64,000 bases of DNA from Streptomyces diastaticus subsp. diastaticus. Lineage in GTDB: Bacteria; Actinomycetota; Actinomycetes; Streptomycetales; Streptomycetaceae. The stretch is from NCBI RefSeq assembly GCF_011170125.1, contig NZ_BLLN01000005.1:744001-808000 (forward strand), given 5' to 3'. The notes under the pieces are model-generated. The model was not told the DNA's origin and did not search any database. It was given only the letters and a program-made list of their open reading frames with translations. A program made the position numbers and the translations under genes. This document shows, piece by piece, positions 12,757 to 51,859 of the stretch; the first letter of the stretch is position 1; every line of letters begins with the position of its first letter.

Positions 12757-13734
12757 ATGACCCTCACCACTCCCCACCTCGCCACGTCCGGCGGATGGAC
12801 CGACGCCCAGTTGCTGCACGCACTGGAGGAGGTCGTGGAGAAGGAGCTCAACCGCCATCTGAAGGTGGCCAAGGACTGGATGCCGCACGACTACGTGCCC
12901 TGGTCCGACGGCCGCAACTTCCCCGGCTTCTTCGAGGACGGCGAGGCGTGGGACAAGGAGCAGTCGCAGGTGACGCCGATCGGCCGCACCGCACTGATCG
13001 TCAACCTCCTCACGGAGGACAATCTGCCGAGCTACCACCACGAGATCGCGTCGCTTTTCGGCCGCGACGGCGCCTGGGGCACCTGGGTGCACCGCTGGAC
13101 CGCCGAGGAGGGGCGGCACGGCATCGTCATGCGGGACTACCTGCTGACCTCGCGGGCGGTCGACCCCGACGAGCTGGAACGGTTCCGGATGGCCCACATG
13201 AGCGAGGGGTTCGAGTCGGACAACCGGCACTCGATGCTCCACTCGGTCGCCTACGTCGCCTTCCAGGAGCTGGCCACCCGCATCTCGCACCGCAACACCG
13301 GCCACCAGTCGGGCGATCCGGTCTGCGACCGGATGCTGGCCCGGATCGCCACCGACGAGAACCTGCACATGGTCTTCTACCGGAACCTGCTCGGCGCCGC
13401 CTTCGAGCTGGCGCCCGACCTGACCATGCAGGCCGTCCGCGACGTCGTGGTCAACTTCCGGATGCCCGGTCACGGAATGCCCGGTTTCGAGCGGGCCGCG
13501 GCGCAGATGGCCATCGGCGAGGTCTACAACCTGCGCATCCACCATGACGACGTGATCCAGCCCGTGCTGCGGTTCCTGAAGGTCATGCAGATCGACGGCC
13601 TGGGCCCGGAGGGTGTGCGCGCCCAGGAGGAGCTGGGACTGTACATGGGCGGGCTGGACGCGGAGGCCGCCAAGTTCGACGAGCGGCTCGCCGCCCGCAA
13701 GGCGCGGATGCGGGCCCGCGCCGACCAGGGCTGA
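12757..13734 (+). CDS. Acyl-[acyl-carrier-protein] desaturase (diiron, soluble)
   Basis: Ferritin-like diiron desaturase of 325 residues that inserts a double bond into acyl-ACP, producing unsaturated membrane fatty acids. Iron-binding signatures are TEDNLPSYHHEI (about residue 88), RWTAEEGRHGIVMRDY (about 115-130) and TDENLHMVFYR (about 205), the usual ExxH pattern pairs. Family starts fit MTLTTPHL with AGGAG 8 nt upstream; a longer in-frame reading through the operator was rejected. The gene stands alone behind a tandem operator, suggesting repression lifted by a lipid signal. Soluble desaturases need ferredoxin; no ferredoxin gene is adjacent. Confidence 0.93.
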   Translation: MTLTTPHLATSGGWTDAQLLHALEEVVEKELNRHLKVAKDWMPHDYVPWSDGRNFPGFFEDGEAWDKEQSQVTPIGRTALIVNLLTEDNLPSYHHEIASLFGRDGAWGTWVHRWTAEEGRHGIVMRDYLLTSRAVDPDELERFRMAHMSEGFESDNRHSMLHSVAYVAFQELATRISHRNTGHQSGDPVCDRMLARIATDENLHMVFYRNLLGAAFELAPDLTMQAVRDVVVNFRMPGHGMPGFERAAAQMAIGEVYNLRIHHDDVIQPVLRFLKVMQIDGLGPEGVRAQEELGLYMGGLDAEAAKFDERLAARKARMRARADQG

Positions 13735-44846: not shown

Positions 44847-45462
44847 GCGCGTTGCGGCCGCCTCGGAGAATCGCCCGGCGGGCCTCGCCGCGGCCTTTTC
44901 GCAGTGCGCAGGAATTCGCCGGCCGGGGGCAGTTCCCACGCGCCCGCTCCTTCTTCTTCCCGCACCGGGCGCCATTTCTCCACATTCACGGGACACGGTC
45001 TTTCCACCCGCCCCCGTACGGGAATCCAGAAAAGCCCAGGACGGATTCACCTGCGGCGAATCTGCACAGCCGTGCCGCACCTCCGTCACCGTCGGCCATA
45101 CCTTCACCCCGTGCGGACGGCCGAGGTCGACGCCCCGCACCAGGGCTTCACACCGAGGCCCGCGGTGTACACGCCGACGTGACCCCGTCCGTCGCGCGGG
45201 CGAGACGGTGTGAAGGTGCTGACGTCCTCCTGTGCCTGGTTCTGCACGCGCCGGGAAGAAGAACGGCACCGGCCGCCGAATTCCGCTCCCGCCGACTGGC
45301 CGCTCCGCGCACCGGCGTGCTTTGATCCATCGCACTGCGGCACCGCCTCCGGATCTCCGGTTCAGCGCCTTTCGTCCGGGGGCCGTCGAAAGATTTCCCC
45401 TTCTTCCGCACGAGTGCGCCGCAGTGGCTATTTCCGTCAGTGATGCGAAGGGAACTTCCCCC
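44847..45462. other. 616-bp regulatory-type region upstream of the peptide gene
   Basis: Lower GC than its surroundings (for example TTTCTCCACATTCACGGG and GGGAATCCAGAAAAGCCC segments), no open frame with a ribosome binding site. It holds a set of CTTCAC-type repeats (see separate entry) and, close to the peptide gene, AAGATTTCCCCTTC and GAAGGGAAC segments. This composition fits an extended control region for the peptide-export operon. Confidence 0.5.
45146..45215. repeat. Inverted CTTCACACCG repeats in the peptide promoter region
   Basis: CTTCACACCG (45146-45155) and its exact reverse complement CGGTGTGAAG (45206-45215) are 50 bp apart; a third similar copy CTTCACCCCG lies at 45102-45111. 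The palindrome GTGTACAC (45165-45172) lies between them. Likely binding sites for a regulator not encoded here. Confidence 0.5.
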
Positions 45463-45678
45463 ATGAGCCACACCCCCCAGGTCGAGACCGCCGAGATCGC
45501 CGACAGCGAGCTGGACAACATCTCCGGCGGCCTCGTCAGCGGCCTCGTCGGCTCGGTCACGGCCGGCGTCGACTCCGTCGCCCCGGTCAGCGAGACCCTC
45601 GGCGCCGTCACCGGCACCGTGGAGCAGACCACCGGTCTGAACACCGCCCCGGTCACCGGCCTCGTCGCCGGTCTCTGA
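45463..45678 (+). CDS. Double-glycine leader peptide (bacteriocin-like precursor)
   Basis: 71-residue precursor. The leader (1-23) ends in SELDNISGG, the classical ELxxIxGG signal for C39-peptidase exporters. The predicted core of 48 residues runs from LVSGLVGSVTAG to VTGLVAGL. It has no Cys, Lys, Arg, His, Trp, Tyr or Phe, three acidic residues, 10 Val, 8 Gly, 8 Thr and 4 Ser, and repeats of the kind VTG-TV and GLV-GL. AAGGGAAC lies upstream of the ATG. It heads a set of export genes with matching specificity. No lanthionine, sactionine or other maturation enzyme is encoded nearby, so the product may be unmodified; its activity is unknown. Confidence 0.85.
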   Translation: MSHTPQVETAEIADSELDNISGGLVSGLVGSVTAGVDSVAPVSETLGAVTGTVEQTTGLNTAPVTGLVAGL

Positions 45679-45730
45679 GACCCCCGCGCGTCGCCCGACG
45701 ACGCGTGCGGCCCGCTTCGGCGGACCGCAC

Positions 45731-45772
45731 CGGCCGGTGCCGGGGACCCGAGCGGGTCCCGGGCACCGGCCG
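45731..45772 (+). terminator. Strong hairpin between peptide gene and exporter genes (probable attenuator)
   Basis: A 20-bp stem with a single mismatch (45731-45750 with 45753-45772) 53 bp after the peptide stop, with CCCCCTTG after it. It would stabilise the peptide mRNA and let only part of the transcripts continue into the exporter genes. Confidence 0.65.
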
Positions 45773-45925
45773 CCCCCTTGCCCTCCCCCGGGCGTCCGCG
45801 CGACGTCCGCCCCGAACTCCCGGACGCACCGGCGCACCCGCGCGCACGCGTCCGGCGCACCACGGCGACACCGGCCGGCCCCGGCCGGGGCAGCGGCCGG
45901 TGCCCGGCAGTCGAGGAAGTCTCCC

Positions 45926-46732
45926 GTGCGCTTTCGCCAGCAGGCCCTGACCAAACTCCAGTCGCCCGAACAACTCGACCTGCCGGTGCGGTTCGCCCGC
46001 CCGCAGGGGCTCCTGGTCCTCGCCGTCACCCTCGTCGTGATGGCCGCGGGCGGCGTCTGGGCCGTGACGGGTTCGGTCGCCACCACTCTGACCGCTCCCG
46101 GCGTCCTCACCCACGCCCAGGGCAGCTACATCGTCCAGAGCACCGTCCCGGGCCAGGTCACCGCCGTCCGTACCGCCGAAGGCCGGCGTGTCGCGCGCGG
46201 CACGCCGCTGCTCACCGTCCGCACCGCCCGGGGCGACGTGACGATCCGTGCCCTGGCCGCCGGGCGGATCACCGCGCTGGCCGCCGTCCAGGGAGCCGTC
46301 GTCACCACCGGCACCGATCTCGCCGCCGTGGAGCGACAGGCCCGCGCCGACGACCCGCTCCTCGCGGTGGTCTACGCCCCCTCCGACAGCGGCGGTTCTC
46401 TCAGCGAGGGCGCGGAGGTCGACCTCACCGTGCGGTCGGTGCCCGCGCAGAGCTACGGCGTGCTGCGCGGCACGGTGAAGTCGGTCGGCCGGACTCCCCG
46501 GACACGGCAGCAGATCTCCGCCGATCTCGGCTCGGCCCAGCTCGGCGAGGAGTTCTCCCGGGGCGGGCCGCCGATCGCCGTCGAGGTCCGCCTGCGCCCC
46601 TCGAAGAGCACCCGCAGCGGCTACACCTGGTCGACCTCCGACGGCCCGCCGCACCCGCTCACCACCCTCACCCTCGTCGACGGCGCCGTCCACCTCGACG
46701 AACAGCGCCCGGCCGATTGGCTCCTCCCGTGA
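45926..46732 (+). CDS. HlyD-like membrane adaptor of the peptide exporter
   Basis: 268 residues: cytoplasmic N-terminus (FRQQALTKLQSPEQLDLPV), one membrane helix (about 28-50, GLLVLAVTLVVMAAGGVWAV), then an extracellular adaptor with a lipoyl-type half (GVLTHAQGSYIVQSTVPGQVTAV, GRVTALAAVQGAVV) and a beta-barrel region. This is the adaptor class found in NHLM-type export operons (NHLM_HlyD). GTG start with GAGGAAG upstream. Four-nt overlap with the C39-ABC gene. In a Gram-positive cell it probably guides the peptide through the cell wall. Confidence 0.82.
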   Translation: MRFRQQALTKLQSPEQLDLPVRFARPQGLLVLAVTLVVMAAGGVWAVTGSVATTLTAPGVLTHAQGSYIVQSTVPGQVTAVRTAEGRRVARGTPLLTVRTARGDVTIRALAAGRITALAAVQGAVVTTGTDLAAVERQARADDPLLAVVYAPSDSGGSLSEGAEVDLTVRSVPAQSYGVLRGTVKSVGRTPRTRQQISADLGSAQLGEEFSRGGPPIAVEVRLRPSKSTRSGYTWSTSDGPPHPLTTLTLVDGAVHLDEQRPADWLLP

Positions 46733-49029
46733 CCGCACCCGCCGACGCCCCCGCCGCCGGGACCGGCCCCACCGCCCCGCCCACCCCGGGCGGCCGCCGG
46801 GGCCGCCGCGCCGCCCCGCCCTCCTCCGGCCGCCGCCGCGCCGCGCCCCCGCGCCGCAGGTCCGGGCGGCGCCTCGTGCGTACCCCCACCGTGCTCCAGA
46901 TGGAGGCGGTGGAGTGCGGCGCCGCCTGCCTCGCGATGGTCCTGGCCCACCACGGGCGCCACGTCCCGCTGGAGGAGCTGCGGATCGCCTGCGGCGTCTC
47001 GCGCGACGGGTCGCGTGCCAGCAACGTCCTGAAGGCGGCCCGCGGTTACGGGCTGACCGCGAAGGGGATGCAGATGGAACCGGCCGCGCTGCGGGAAGTG
47101 CGGGCCCCGGCGGTGCTGTTCTGGGAGTTCAACCACTACGTCGTCCACGAAGGGTTCCTGCGGCGCCCCGGGCGGCGCGGCGCGGCGCGCCTCAACGACC
47201 CCGACAAGGGACGCCGGGTGGTGAGCGCGGAGGAGTTCGACGCCTCCTTCACGGGGGTCGCCCTGCTCCTCGAGCCGGGCCCGTCCTTCCGCGGGGGCGG
47301 CCGCCGGCCCGGTCTGCTCGGCGCGCTCCCCGCCCGGCTGCGCGGCACCGGCGCCACCCTGCTGACGGCGCTCCTGGCCAGCCTGCTGCTGGTCGTCGTG
47401 GGCGCCGCGCTGCCCGCGCTCAGCCGGACGTACATCGACCTGTTCCTGATCGGGGAGCGCGGTTCGGTGCTCGGGCCGCTCTTCGCGGCGATGGGCGCGC
47501 TGGTGGCGCTGACCGCCTCGCTCACCGCGCTCCAGCAGGCCAACCTGCTGCGCGGGCGGATCATCTCCTCGACGCTGAGCGGCGCCCGGTTCCTGCGCCA
47601 TCTGCTGCGACTGCCGGTGACCTTCTTCGCCCAGCGCTCCCCCGCCGACCTGGTGCAGCGGCTCCAGTCGAACGACACGGTGGCCGAGACCCTGGCCCGC
47701 GACCTGGCGGCGGCCGCCGTGGACGGGGTGGTGGTGGTGCTGTACGCGCTGCTGCTGTGGACGTACGACCCGCAGCTCACCCTGGTCGGGGTGGGGATCG
47801 CGCTGCTGAACATCGTGGCGATGCGGGTGGTGATCCACCTGCGGGCCACCCGGACCCGGAAGCTGCGGGCGGACAACGCCCGGCTGACCACCACCGCGTA
47901 CACCGGCCTCCAGCTCATCGAGACGATGAAGGCGACCGGTGGCGAGGACGGCTTCTTCCGCCGGTGGGCGGGTCAGCACGCGACGACGCTGGAGGAGCAG
48001 CAGCGGCTCGGGGTGCCGACGGCGGTGCTGTCGGTGGTGGCTCCGGCGCTGGCCACCTTCAACAGCGCGCTCATCCTGTGGATCGGCGGGCTGCGGGCGG
48101 TCGAGGGGCATCTCTCGGTCGGGCTGCTGGTGGCGTTCCAGGCGCTCATGGTGCGGTTCACGGCGCCGCTGACCCGGCTCAACGGCGTCGCGGGCCGCAT
48201 CCAGGACTTCGCGGCGGACGTGACCCGGCTGCGCGACGTGGAGGCGTTCCCGGCGGACGGGCTGTACCTCCGGGAGGGCACGGCCGGCGGCGGGGCGGAC
48301 ACCCGGCGGCTGGCGGGCCGGGTGGAACTGGACGGGCTGACCTTCGGCTACAGCCCGCTGGACCCGCCGCTGCTGAGGGACTTCTCGCTGACGGTCGGCC
48401 CGGGGCGCCAGGTGGCGCTGGTCGGCGGTTCGGGCAGCGGCAAGTCGACCGTCTCGCGGCTGCTGGCGGGCTTGTACCAGCCGTGGGAGGGCACCATCCG
48501 CATCGACGGGCGGCCGCTCACCGAGATCCCGCGCCCGGCGCTGGCCGCCTCGGTCTCCTTCGTCGACCAGGACATCTTCCTCTTCGAGGGCACCGTGCGG
48601 GAGAACGTCACGCTGTGGGACCCCTCGCTCCCCGACGAGGCGGTGCGCACGGCGCTGCGCGACGCCGGCCTGGAGGAGGTGGTCGCCCGCCGCCCCGACG
48701 GCGTCCACGCCCGGGTCGAGCAGGACGGACGGAACTTCTCCGGCGGCCAGCGGCAGCGGCTGGAGATCGCCCGGGCCCTGGTGCGCCGCCCCAGCGTGCT
48801 GGTGCTGGACGAGGTGACCAGCGCGCTCGACGCGGAGACCGAGCAGCGGGTGATGGCGGCCCTGCGGCGACGCGGCTGCGCCTGCGTGATCATCGCGCAC
48901 CGGCTCTCCACCGTCCGCGACAGCGACGAGATCGTGGTGCTGGACGGCGGCCGCGTCGTGGAACGCGGCCGCCACGCCGAACTGGTCGCCCGGGGCGGGG
49001 CGTACGCGGCCCTGGTCGAGGAGAAGTGA
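46729..49029 (+). CDS. C39-peptidase ABC exporter (NHLM-type, ABC1)
   Basis: 766 residues. A Pro/Arg-rich N-terminus (1-50) precedes the C39 cysteine peptidase domain (about 52-185): Gln57 and catalytic Cys63 in QMEAVECGAACLAM, His in NHYVVHEG (about 136) and Asp in RLNDPDKGR. Then six membrane segments (about 205-480) and an ATPase with Walker A GGSGSGKST, signature FSGGQRQRLEIARALVRRP and Walker B VLVLDEVTSALD. It cuts the leader after Gly-Gly and exports the core. GTG start overlaps the adaptor stop (GTGA). Substrate is almost certainly the upstream double-glycine peptide. Confidence 0.93.
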   Translation: MTAPADAPAAGTGPTAPPTPGGRRGRRAAPPSSGRRRAAPPRRRSGRRLVRTPTVLQMEAVECGAACLAMVLAHHGRHVPLEELRIACGVSRDGSRASNVLKAARGYGLTAKGMQMEPAALREVRAPAVLFWEFNHYVVHEGFLRRPGRRGAARLNDPDKGRRVVSAEEFDASFTGVALLLEPGPSFRGGGRRPGLLGALPARLRGTGATLLTALLASLLLVVVGAALPALSRTYIDLFLIGERGSVLGPLFAAMGALVALTASLTALQQANLLRGRIISSTLSGARFLRHLLRLPVTFFAQRSPADLVQRLQSNDTVAETLARDLAAAAVDGVVVVLYALLLWTYDPQLTLVGVGIALLNIVAMRVVIHLRATRTRKLRADNARLTTTAYTGLQLIETMKATGGEDGFFRRWAGQHATTLEEQQRLGVPTAVLSVVAPALATFNSALILWIGGLRAVEGHLSVGLLVAFQALMVRFTAPLTRLNGVAGRIQDFAADVTRLRDVEAFPADGLYLREGTAGGGADTRRLAGRVELDGLTFGYSPLDPPLLRDFSLTVGPGRQVALVGGSGSGKSTVSRLLAGLYQPWEGTIRIDGRPLTEIPRPALAASVSFVDQDIFLFEGTVRENVTLWDPSLPDEAVRTALRDAGLEEVVARRPDGVHARVEQDGRNFSGGQRQRLEIARALVRRPSVLVLDEVTSALDAETEQRVMAALRRRGCACVIIAHRLSTVRDSDEIVVLDGGRVVERGRHAELVARGGAYAALVEEK

Positions 49030-49030
49030 G

Positions 49031-51859
49031 ATGACGGGTGTGCGGCAGGCCGCCCGTGCCGCGGCGGCCGACCCGGTGACGGCGGTACTCGGCGGGCTCG
49101 GCGCGCCGGTGGAGGCGGCCGACGGGACGGTGCTGCCGCTCGGTGGCCCCTCCGCGCTCTGGCTGGTCACCGGGGGCGGCCTCGACCTCTTCGCGGTGGC
49201 GGCGGCCGAGGACGGCCACTGGCACTTCCTGGGCCGTCTGGAGGCCGGCACGCTGCTGCTGGGCGCGGTCGAGGGTCCCCGCCACACCCTGGTGGGCCGC
49301 CCCTCCTCCCGGTGCGCCCTGCGCCGCCTGCCGCTGCGCGAGCTGTACGCGCCGCCGGGCCGCCCCGAGGCGTACGAGGGGTGGGCGCCGGCCCCGGGGC
49401 CACTGGAGCACGCGGTGGCGCTCGGCCTCGGCCGGGGACTCGCCGTGCTGTTCGCCGCGCCGCAGGCGGACGGCCCGGCGCCGGCGGCGGGGCCCGCCGA
49501 CGAGGACGTGCTGTGGGTGGACGTGCCGCCGGGCAGCGTCCGCCTCGGCGCCGACTTCGCGGCCGAGGCGGCGGCCGACCTGCTGGTCGACGGGGCGCTG
49601 TGGCAGTCCCTGGTGGACCAGCAGCACCGGCTGCTGACCGCCGTCGACGGGTGGGTGGAGCGGCTGGAGCGGGCCCACGAGGACCGTGCGGCGGCCGGTG
49701 TCCGCGCCGGCGAGGCGGTACGGGAGCGCGCCGACCAGGCCCTGCTCGACTCCATCGGCCGCCGCGACCGGTCCGTCCGGGCGCCCGGCGAGGCGGGCGA
49801 CGACGCGGTGTACGCGGTCTTCCGCCAGGTGGCGCGGGCCAGCGGCATCCCCCTCCCGGAGGCGGCGGCGCGTTCGGTGGCGGGCGGCGCCCGGCTCGAT
49901 CCGGTGGAGCGGATGGCGGCCGCCGCACGGCTCCGGACCCGCCCGGTGCGGCTGGCCGGCGCGTGGTGGCGCGCCGACGCCGGTCCGCTGGTGGGCCGGC
50001 GCGCCAAGTCCGGCGCCCCCGTCGCCCTGCTGTGGCGGCGCGGCCGGTACGAGGCGCTCAGCCCGGCCACCGGTGCCCGCATCCGGATCGGCGCGAAGGA
50101 GGCCGCCGACTTCGAGGAACGCGCCACGATGCTCCACCGGCCGCTGCCCGGCGGTCCGCTGACGCTGCGCCGGCTGATGCTGTTCAGCCTGCGCGGCTCC
50201 CGGGGCGACCTGCGCAACCTCGCCCTCAGCGGTCTGGTCACCGTGGCACTGGGCGCCCTGGTGCCGGTGGCGACCGGGCAGGTGCTCGGCGCGTACGTGC
50301 CGAGTGCGCGGACCGGGCTGATCGCGCAGATGTGTGTGGCGGTGATGGTGGCCGGGGTGGTCTCGGCGGCGTTCACGCTGCTCCAGTCGCTGACCTTGCT
50401 GCGTCTGGAGGGACGGATCGAGGCGGCGTTGCAGCCGGCCGTCTGGGACCGGCTGCTGCGGCTGCCGACGGCGTTCTTCGCGGACCGGTCCACCGGCGAG
50501 CTGGCCAGTGCCGCGATGGGTGTCAGCGCGATCCGCCGGGTGCTGTCGGGAATCGGGCCGACGGCCGTGCAGTCGGTGACGGTGGCCGTCGTCAACCTGG
50601 TGCTGCTGCTGGTGCACAGCGTGCCGATGGCGCTGGCGGCCATCGGGGTGCTGCTGGTGGTCTCGGTGGTCTTCCTGGTGCTGGGGCTCTGGCAGGTGAA
50701 GTGGCAGCGCAGGCTGGTGGAGCTGGGCAACCGGCTGAACAACCAGGCGTTCCAGACTCTGCGGGGGCTGCCGAAGCTGCGGGTGGCGGCGGCGGAGAGC
50801 TTCGCGTACGCCGCGTGGGCGCGCGGCTTCGCGCGCAGCCGCCGGATGCAGCAGAGGGCCGGGCGGATCCGGAACCTGTCCACGGTGCTGAGCGCGGTGT
50901 ACCTGCCGCTCTGCTCGCTGCTGATGTTCGTGCTGCTGGCCGGTCCGGCGCGCGGCACCCTGTCGGCGGCCGAGTTCCTCACCTTCAACACCGCCGTGAC
51001 GATGATGCTGACCTCGGTGACGCAGTTGACCGGCGCCCTGGTCTCGGCGGTCGCGGTACTGCCGCTGTACGAGCAGGTGCGTCCGGTGCTGGACGCGGAG
51101 CCGGAGGTCCGCGCCTCGGCGAGCGCCCCCGGCGAGCTGACCGGTGAGCTGCGGGCCCGGGGGCTGTCCTTCCGGTACACGGAGGACGGGCCGCTGGTCC
51201 TGGACGACGTGTCGCTGTCGGTGCGGGCCGGGGAGTTCGTGGCGGTGGTCGGCCCGAGCGGCAGCGGGAAGTCGACGCTGCTGCGGCTGCTGATCGGCTT
51301 CGACCGGCCGCTGTCCGGCGCGGTCCTCTACGACGGCCAGGACCTGGCCGCGCTCGACCAGGCGGCGGTGCGGCGGCAGTTGGGCGTGGTGCTGCAGAAC
51401 GCCCAGCCCCTCACCGGCACCGTGCTGGACTGCGTCTGCGGGGCGGAGGTGTTCACGCAGGAGGAGGCGTGGGCGGCGGCCGAGGCGGCGGGGCTCGCGG
51501 AGGACGTCCGGCGGATGCCGATGGGCCTGCACACCATGATCGCGCAGGGCGGCGCGGTCTCCGGCGGCCAGCGCCAGCGGCTGATGATCGCCCAGGCGCT
51601 GATCCGCCGTCCCAGGCTGCTCTTCCTGGACGAGGCGACCAGCGCCCTGGACAACGGCACGCAGCGCACCGTGATGGAGTCGACGCGGGCCCTCCGGGCG
51701 ACCCGGATCGTGGTGGCACACCGCCTGTCGACGGTGCTGGACGCGGACCGGGTGCTGGTCATGGACGGCGGCCGGATCGTGGAGGAGGGCTCCCCCGCCG
51801 AGCTGCTGGCCCGGCCCGAGGGCCGGTTGCGGGCGCTGGTGCGCAGGCAACTGGCGTGA
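49031..51859 (+). CDS. Second NHLM-type ABC exporter (ABC2, no peptidase)
   Basis: 942 residues. The first 385 form a long cytoplasmic region without a C39 motif (LPLGGPSALWLVTGGGLDLF; ends with RIGAKEAADFEERATMLH), as in the ABC2 component of NHLM bacteriocin systems. Membrane domain (about 390-680) and ATPase with GPSGSGKST, VSGGQRQRLMIAQALIRRP and LLFLDEATSALD. Starts one base after the stop of the C39 exporter. It likely pairs with that protein as a heterodimer, or forms a second exporter; the split of work is unknown. Confidence 0.9.
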   Translation: MTGVRQAARAAAADPVTAVLGGLGAPVEAADGTVLPLGGPSALWLVTGGGLDLFAVAAAEDGHWHFLGRLEAGTLLLGAVEGPRHTLVGRPSSRCALRRLPLRELYAPPGRPEAYEGWAPAPGPLEHAVALGLGRGLAVLFAAPQADGPAPAAGPADEDVLWVDVPPGSVRLGADFAAEAAADLLVDGALWQSLVDQQHRLLTAVDGWVERLERAHEDRAAAGVRAGEAVRERADQALLDSIGRRDRSVRAPGEAGDDAVYAVFRQVARASGIPLPEAAARSVAGGARLDPVERMAAAARLRTRPVRLAGAWWRADAGPLVGRRAKSGAPVALLWRRGRYEALSPATGARIRIGAKEAADFEERATMLHRPLPGGPLTLRRLMLFSLRGSRGDLRNLALSGLVTVALGALVPVATGQVLGAYVPSARTGLIAQMCVAVMVAGVVSAAFTLLQSLTLLRLEGRIEAALQPAVWDRLLRLPTAFFADRSTGELASAAMGVSAIRRVLSGIGPTAVQSVTVAVVNLVLLLVHSVPMALAAIGVLLVVSVVFLVLGLWQVKWQRRLVELGNRLNNQAFQTLRGLPKLRVAAAESFAYAAWARGFARSRRMQQRAGRIRNLSTVLSAVYLPLCSLLMFVLLAGPARGTLSAAEFLTFNTAVTMMLTSVTQLTGALVSAVAVLPLYEQVRPVLDAEPEVRASASAPGELTGELRARGLSFRYTEDGPLVLDDVSLSVRAGEFVAVVGPSGSGKSTLLRLLIGFDRPLSGAVLYDGQDLAALDQAAVRRQLGVVLQNAQPLTGTVLDCVCGAEVFTQEEAWAAAEAAGLAEDVRRMPMGLHTMIAQGGAVSGGQRQRLMIAQALIRRPRLLFLDEATSALDNGTQRTVMESTRALRATRIVVAHRLSTVLDADRVLVMDGGRIVEEGSPAELLARPEGRLRALVRRQLA

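Follow-up and report, generated by a model that had tools for sequence, protein, structure and literature searches.

Gene Organization of the Export Unit

What does a Streptomyces cell release when its genome carries a double-glycine peptide export system with no modification enzyme beside it? This question is raised by a four-gene unit (positions 45463–51859) in a 64,000-nt stretch of DNA from Streptomyces diastaticus subsp. diastaticus (genome of 7.08 Mb), which is called the window here. An initial annotation had read the unit as a 71-residue precursor with an ELDNISGG leader, an HlyD adaptor, a peptidase C39 ATP-binding cassette (ABC) exporter and a further, NHLM-type ABC exporter. We lean slightly towards the view that it is a maturase-free offshoot of the NHLP export cassette, which would release an unmodified hydrophobic peptide with a role at the cell envelope or surface. 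Below, L and G numbers are our labels for loci and genomes.

All features of the unit lie on the plus strand. The precursor gene (45463–45678) is preceded by a ribosome-binding site, GAAGGGAA (45447–45454), starts with ATG at 45463, stops at 45676–45678 and encodes 71 residues, of which the first 23 (45463–45531) form a leader of the double-glycine type. The predicted core of 48 residues (45532–45675) runs from LVSG to GLVAGL, with a monoisotopic mass of 4464.39 if unmodified. A gap of 247 nt separates the precursor from the exporter genes. The HlyD-type adaptor (45926–46732) was given a GTG start chosen from homolog matches: the mechanical open reading frame (ORF) opens at 45737, whereas homologs align only from GTG 45926. 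The C39 exporter (46729–49029) also starts with GTG, overlaps the adaptor stop by 4 nt and holds the peptidase C39 domain (PF03412) at 46882–47283, and the second ABC exporter (49031–51859) has no peptidase and carries a 256-residue N-terminal extension. Because of the 4-nt overlap and the start of the second exporter at 49031, we read the three exporter genes as one operon.

The C39 exporter and the second exporter passed the NCBIfam models TIGR03796 and TIGR03797 with 987.5 and 838 bits (cut-offs 853.3 and 709.4), respectively, and the adaptor, scanned with its over-long start, scored 155.4 bits against TIGR03794, just below 156.2. By these family matches, the exporter genes are the known NHLP three-gene cassette. 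We compared 80 other loci, the best 80 of 392 found, and the order precursor, HlyD adaptor, C39 exporter was present in 80 of 80, a few of them partial; the second exporter was clear in 78, as L013 ends before reaching it and L076 is scrambled. Since the precursor has 202 matches at E ≤ 0.001 and this gene order recurs in all 80 loci, the unit is not a chance arrangement. The four genes of the initial annotation were confirmed, and the absence of the precursor beside the exporters of related genomes, which it had named as a refutation of its reading, was not observed. Among the named loci, the closest to the window is that of Streptomyces albidoflavus (L002), with 89% identity in the precursor and 96% in the C39 exporter.

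The closest solved relative of the C39 domain is LahT150 (6mpz), which it matched with 131 bits, and the motifs ECGAA, FNH and NDP aligned; we take these motifs to be the sites of the catalytic Cys, His and Asp. In LahT, residues −4, −7 and −12 sit in a hydrophobic groove, and ComA recognizes Leu-12, Glu-8 and Leu-7 (PMC6363468). The window leader, with Ile-4, Leu-7, Glu-8 and Ile-12, fits the rule given in that paper (hydrophobic residues at −4, −7 and −12, Glu at −8). The leader rule, the intact active-site motifs and the conserved gene order agree with the earlier proposal of a double-glycine peptide beside its likely exporter, and we believe that cleavage and export are likely in the window strain. 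The N-terminal 256 residues of the second exporter (49031–49798) had no sequence match in Pfam or the PDB; a CAP_ED domain has been reported in its cyanobacterial counterparts (PMC3140520).

Composition and Conservation of the Precursor Peptide

The window core contains one Asp and two Glu and no Cys, Lys, Arg, His, Phe, Trp or Tyr, so the hydrophobic and anionic composition claimed earlier for it holds. The homologs of the precursor number 202 proteins, its own copy included. Core statistics were taken from the 119 that could be parsed among the 120 matches listed of these 202 (in P0026, AAG replaces GG), and the following counts apply to those. Cys was found in none, Lys, Arg or His in 9, and an aromatic residue in 2; the net charge was −2 or −3 in 113, and the C-terminal end was LVAGL in 112.

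In 75 loci and the window with genes of equal length (out of 79 and the window), the ratio of nonsynonymous to synonymous substitution rates was 0.30 for the leader, 0.55 for the core and 0.33 for residues 57–71, the last 15, in relatives that are fairly close and have GC-biased third positions. This indicates that the core is under purifying selection with a near-invariant C-terminus, which is about as constrained as the leader.

In many Streptomyces genomes, the precursor homologs are named "type A2 lantipeptide" by NCBI. This name is unfit because the precursor has no Cys, and a lanthipeptide was rejected for the same lack in the window core and the 119 parsed homologs; the lantibiotic precursor models PF04604 and NF040664 gave 13.9 and 12.6 bits against cut-offs of 21.7 and 46, respectively. 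A methyl-cyclopropylglycine peptide of the TigB type was also rejected (NF047709, 15 against 70 bits). The NHLP and Nif11 leader models TIGR03793 and TIGR03798 gave no match to the precursor up to E 1, and the leader has just 23 residues.

Distribution of the Leader and the Exporter Cassette

A leader-only profile, A2, was built from 25 leaders partly drawn from the same genomes (pattern ETxEIsDxELDnvSGG), and was run together with TIGR03797 over the same 295 Streptomyces genomes. The cassette was scored as present when the best E was below 1e-150; the formal model cut-off gives 217 of 295, and G038, an odd case, as well as the fragmentary matches of G001 and G119, lie below it. Both leader and cassette were found in 218 genomes, the leader only in 0, the cassette only in 3 and neither in 74. 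Among the three genomes with only the cassette, two have cassettes related to the thiazole/oxazole-modified microcin (TOMM) type: G188 has the genes YcaO and SagB adjoining it, and G038 groups with the YcaO/SagB-type cassettes and has SagB adjoining. The third, G120, holds a window-type cassette on a truncated contig of 5.4 kb, starting at the C39 exporter gene. The Fisher p of 9e-67 for this co-occurrence is overstated because relatedness makes genome counts non-independent. In an even sample of the class, the leader was found in 22 of 28 genomes of the genus and in 0 of 268 outside it; of the six without it, four had no cassette and two had the YcaO type (L167, L168). In the genomes sampled, the leader therefore occurs solely where the exporter is present, and the exporter with at least one tagged peptide is found in about three quarters of the Streptomyces genomes.

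This breadth bears on the idea of a bacteriocin, an unmodified antibacterial peptide aimed at relatives. The cassette families bear the name bacteriocin export, and the peptide of the S. coelicolor unit SCO0753–0756, discussed below, is called a bacteriocin (PMC5733086, PMC6414726). However, the peptide is present in about three quarters of the genomes, its core is anionic and under purifying selection up to a near-invariant C-terminus, and no immunity-like gene was recognized among the 14 commonest neighbor clusters, in which ORFs under 60 residues were uncalled. We consider a bacteriocin improbable.

The leader is not confined to the cassette. At least two leader peptides were found in at least 99 of the 218 genomes, with at least 339 matches in total; both are lower bounds, since scoring was limited to the best candidates. 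Among 15 genomes picked for multiple or weak matches (34 matches), 30 loci were examined: 16 adjoin the cassette (L082–L096, L104), and the other 14 lack any cassette gene within 1.5 kb. A further 11 places (L205–L215) lie elsewhere than their own genome's cassette by coordinates, and the loci checked away from the cassette in multi-peptide genomes number 25, with differing cores. Short ORFs of this dispersed kind, sharing the leader and differing in the core, are those of L144–L160 and L205–L215. When 17 dispersed places (stretches of 7 to 12 kb) were searched with the cassette genes and one query each for YcaO and SagB, the only match was a generic ABC ATPase, at L160. The window's genome has one leader peptide only, and at 12 divergent cassettes no candidate came out of a strict leader search.

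The 17 dispersed cores of the first set fall into a few mutually unlike families rich in Gly, Ala, Val, Leu, Ser and Thr, with Cys in 2, an aromatic residue in 9 and Lys or Arg in 8. The cassette-borne cores are more uniform (81 distinct, none with Cys). Some dispersed peptides have peculiar surroundings. For example, the leader peptide at L147:5988–6221 has a His-rich core with a GHHGHHGHHGMHG stretch, of metal-binding look, and stands beside a P-type cation ATPase gene; those at L153 and L157 adjoin a Tad/type-IV-pilus-like cluster, and L157 also has a 1522-residue ORF behind a small ORF, presumably WXG100-like.

A Promoter-Like Element Shared by Some Dispersed Genes

An alignment of 81 upstream regions showed blocks conserved across Streptomyces (TGTGAAG..., CTGCACG..., GACTGG... 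and the element TGCTTTGATCC) in the region upstream of the precursor (45209–45340, plus strand). The promoter-like element TGCTTTGATCCATCGCACTGCGG (45318–45340), 145 nt before the ATG, appears to resemble an extended −10 sequence, and GCTTTGAT was found 80–169 nt (median 138) before the precursor in 76 of the 81 regions. A sigma-70 scan gave no promoter. The string TGYTTTGATC has two occurrences in the 7.1-Mb genome, one of which is the window site; the other, C2:1103605, was not counted as a promoter because it is convergent to a glyoxalase-like gene, at whose end it is placed, and has no GCAC part.

The same element precedes a share of the dispersed genes. With the 23-base matrix, 6 of the 17 peptides of set 1 scored above all 136 controls, which were upstream regions from the same stretches, and 6 of 11 further dispersed peptides (set 2) scored above all 32 of theirs. 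The 12-base core form, selected after the first results were known, placed 9 of the 11 in set 2 above all 32 controls. The exact string TGNTTTGATC was found in 5 of 17 in set 1 against 0 of 136 controls, and in 6 of 11 in set 2. Against a shared element stand the 12-base core in set 1, where only 2 of 17 exceeded every control and one control scored 18.3, and L160, which was missed by the leader pattern, lies outside the 17 and has no element. The control scoring 18.3 is L145:7119–8138, an exonuclease/phosphatase-family gene that adjoins two tandem leader peptides and has TGCTCTGATCCA upstream. The homologous pairs L144/L146, L151/L159 and L153/L157 are not independent, and about half of the dispersed genes have no clear copy. 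Among the 13 diverged cassette-borne precursors L084–L096, the 23-base form was strong in 3 (L084, L086, L088), and several others had no good match.

The shared element could be accounted for by co-regulation or by duplication of a single ancestral 5' end, and either would tie many of the dispersed genes to the exporter operon. We speculate, giving it about an even chance, that in each genome a single maturase-free exporter of NHLP type serves in trans a scattered set of co-regulated secreted peptides, which would have a common leader and promoter element, unrelated cores rich in Gly, Ala, Val, Ser and Thr, a genus-specific distribution and probably an envelope-related role.

Neighboring Genes and Possible Modification

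The claim that nothing else belongs to the unit stood for the window and fell short for other lineages. The genes around the unit in the window are not common to the other loci (an acyl ligase was found in 2, GNAT in 1 and DoxX in 0 of those compared), and tblastn with one L166 query each found no relative of YcaO or SagB in the window or the 80 loci. In other lineages, five neighbor types recur, named from the domains of one scanned member each. Upstream, 66 of 80 loci have a divergently oriented serine protease gene (alpha-lytic prodomain, trypsin domain) at a distance of about 760 nt, and 64 have a PAS/GAF/SpoIIE-type regulator gene at about 2.6 kb. Downstream, a Ppx/GppA gene follows directly in 50, and an iron-containing redox enzyme and a methyltransferase lie 1.5–2.5 kb away in 39 and 30, respectively (e.g., L057:17738–19225 and L052:18670–19344). 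One such protease is L031:7611–9185, with relatives in 65 other loci. None of the five was found in the window, and they were absent from 12 diverged cassette loci, except for a weak SpoIIE/GAF match in L198. The recurring neighbors resemble synteny inherited within part of the genus, and in those lineages they may trim or modify the peptide.

A cell-to-cell signal is another candidate role: a receptor would sense either the whole mature peptide or a fragment from its conserved C-terminus GLNTAPVTGLVAGL. In its favor, besides the regulator gene in 64 of 80 loci, quorum peptides also travel via C39 exporters (PMC6363468), the C-terminus is constrained to about the same degree as the leader, and expression in S. 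coelicolor follows a two-component system (PMC6629963). The regulator was, however, found neither in the window nor, beyond the weak match in L198, in the 12 diverged cassette loci, and a C-terminus that is the same from species to species would be unexpected in a species-specific signal, which leaves this explanation doubtful in our view.

Conceivably, an enzyme whose gene lies at another site, or close by in some lineages, modifies the core (oxazoline formation at Ser/Thr, dehydration, oxidation or methylation), as in relatives of the TOMM type. The window core offers 12 Ser/Thr, the redox enzyme and methyltransferase recur downstream, and the nearest other-type cassettes have YcaO and SagB. 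Without Cys, however, neither lanthionine nor thiazole can form, and the leader matches no NHLP or Nif11 model. Neither the redox nor the methyltransferase gene is present in the window or in any of the 12 diverged cassette loci checked, which makes them look like lineage synteny. No YcaO or SagB was found near the 17 dispersed peptides with one query each, and no shared maturase was found among ten neighbors of six dispersed places, which include one methyltransferase, one FAD oxidoreductase and a cation ATPase. We regard modification as unlikely, though it deserves more weight than either the bacteriocin or the signal.

Among 14 other-type cassettes, in the stretches examined, YcaO and SagB were found together in 6 (L161, L163, L166, L167, L168, L184), YcaO alone in 3 (L162, and weakly L164 and L165), SagB alone in 1 (L186) and neither in 4 (L169–L172). 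For L161, L163 and L166 the assignment was also checked with family models, and L161 in addition has an NHLP-like ORF below the cut-off. In a FastTree phylogeny of 36 C39 exporters, a branch supported at 1.000 separated the 22 window-type exporters from the others. A loss of maturases in the window-type lineage is likely, and it stays unproven because the root of the tree is not fixed.

An Rfam scan gave no match inside the unit at the gathering score; elsewhere in the window, an ASdes small RNA was matched at 13108–13175 on the minus strand (51.7 bits, gathering score 40).

Comparison with Known Systems

The find itself and much of its reading are not new, since the unit matches the published SCO0753–0756 of S. 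coelicolor, which shares its four-gene order, with a Cys-free hydrophobic peptide, an HlyD protein and two ABC components (PMC6629963). In a kinase mutant whose mycelium is dispersed, no gene was over-expressed more strongly than SCO0753 (log2 6.3); SCO0753–0756 were almost silent in the null mutant, and the authors propose export by this system and an effect on the hyphal surface (PMC6629963). SCO0753 is listed with 77 residues through an upstream start, against 71 in the window, and L083 likewise reads 77. The accessible reports on SCO0753–0756 give expression data and do not describe the leader family, the co-occurrence, the dispersed peptides or the shared element. What is new here is the co-distribution of leader and exporter and the dispersed peptides that partly share an element; no report of multi-cargo or dispersed double-glycine peptides in Streptomyces was found in searches of the open-access literature.

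Studies of the NHLP/Nif11 cassette, whose trio TIGR03794/03796/03797 is that of the window unit, have described several precursors, some far from the export genes (PMC2887384). Its precursors have long nitrile-hydratase or Nif11-like leaders with Gly-Gly at average positions 83 and 70, against 23 residues in the window, and its systems have TOMM or lanthionine enzymes, whereas no enzyme adjoins the window unit (PMC2887384). By description, cyanobacterial group V bacteriocin clusters likewise combine HlyD, a short C39 exporter and a second ABC protein without peptidase; their precursors, about three per cluster, are of NHLP, N11P and other types (PMC3140520). Similarly, the prochlorosins resemble the window-type leader peptides in having many double-Gly precursors and few processing genes (PMC10783134, PMC6363468). 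Unlike them, the window unit has no Cys and no adjoining LanM. Prochlorosins carry Nif11-type leaders, and their lanthionines are made by ProcM. Another Streptomyces peptide, the surfactant SapB, is a secreted lantibiotic-like peptide with a morphogenic surface role that needs Cys. The window peptide, which is unlike SapB in this need, can be likened to it by description (SapB is mentioned in PMC6629963).

Proposed Function and Significance

In the reading that we favor, a maturase-free export unit acting at the surface, the precursor would be transcribed from a promoter bearing TGCTTTGATCC, and its 23-residue leader would dock on the first ABC exporter at the C39 domain, where the cut after Gly-Gly would be made. 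The ABC pair and the HlyD adaptor would then release the 48-residue Cys-free hydrophobic anionic peptide, probably without any conventional modification, and the peptide would most likely act at the hyphal envelope or surface, coat-like or surfactant-like, instead of as an arms-race toxin. The genes, their order, the fit between leader and protease, the conservation and the co-occurrence are seen in the sequences themselves, whereas cleavage and export in this strain, the lack of modification, the promoter function of the element and the surface role are inferred.

Several points weigh against this reading. The sole PF05147 (LanC-like) match of the genome, at C5:148021, lies about 640 kb from the precursor and leaves room for modification, as do the downstream redox enzyme and methyltransferase in other loci. 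The substitution rates carry the caveat given with them. The AlphaFold2 model of the peptide is poor (mean per-residue confidence pLDDT 65.8, global confidence pTM 0.26), and hydrophobic periodicity over all angles was not significant (p 0.60 for the window, 0.24 for the consensus); an amphipathic helix is unsupported on that scale, as the single-angle p values of 0.035 at 100 degrees (window) and 0.011 at 110 degrees (consensus) are uncorrected. Orthology with SCO0753–0756, as we infer it, comes from gene order and description, not from sequence. The surface role, in our opinion the most likely one, is argued from expression in another species and from composition, and in the accessible S. 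coelicolor literature the product itself is not described and is known here from genes alone.

If the exporter serves a co-regulated set of peptides, the best-studied antibiotic producers would have a dedicated secretion route for unmodified peptides. A wrong gene-cluster label, that of a lantipeptide without Cys, could be corrected, and the leader and the promoter-like element would be simple handles for listing the members of the set and for testing their function in S. coelicolor.

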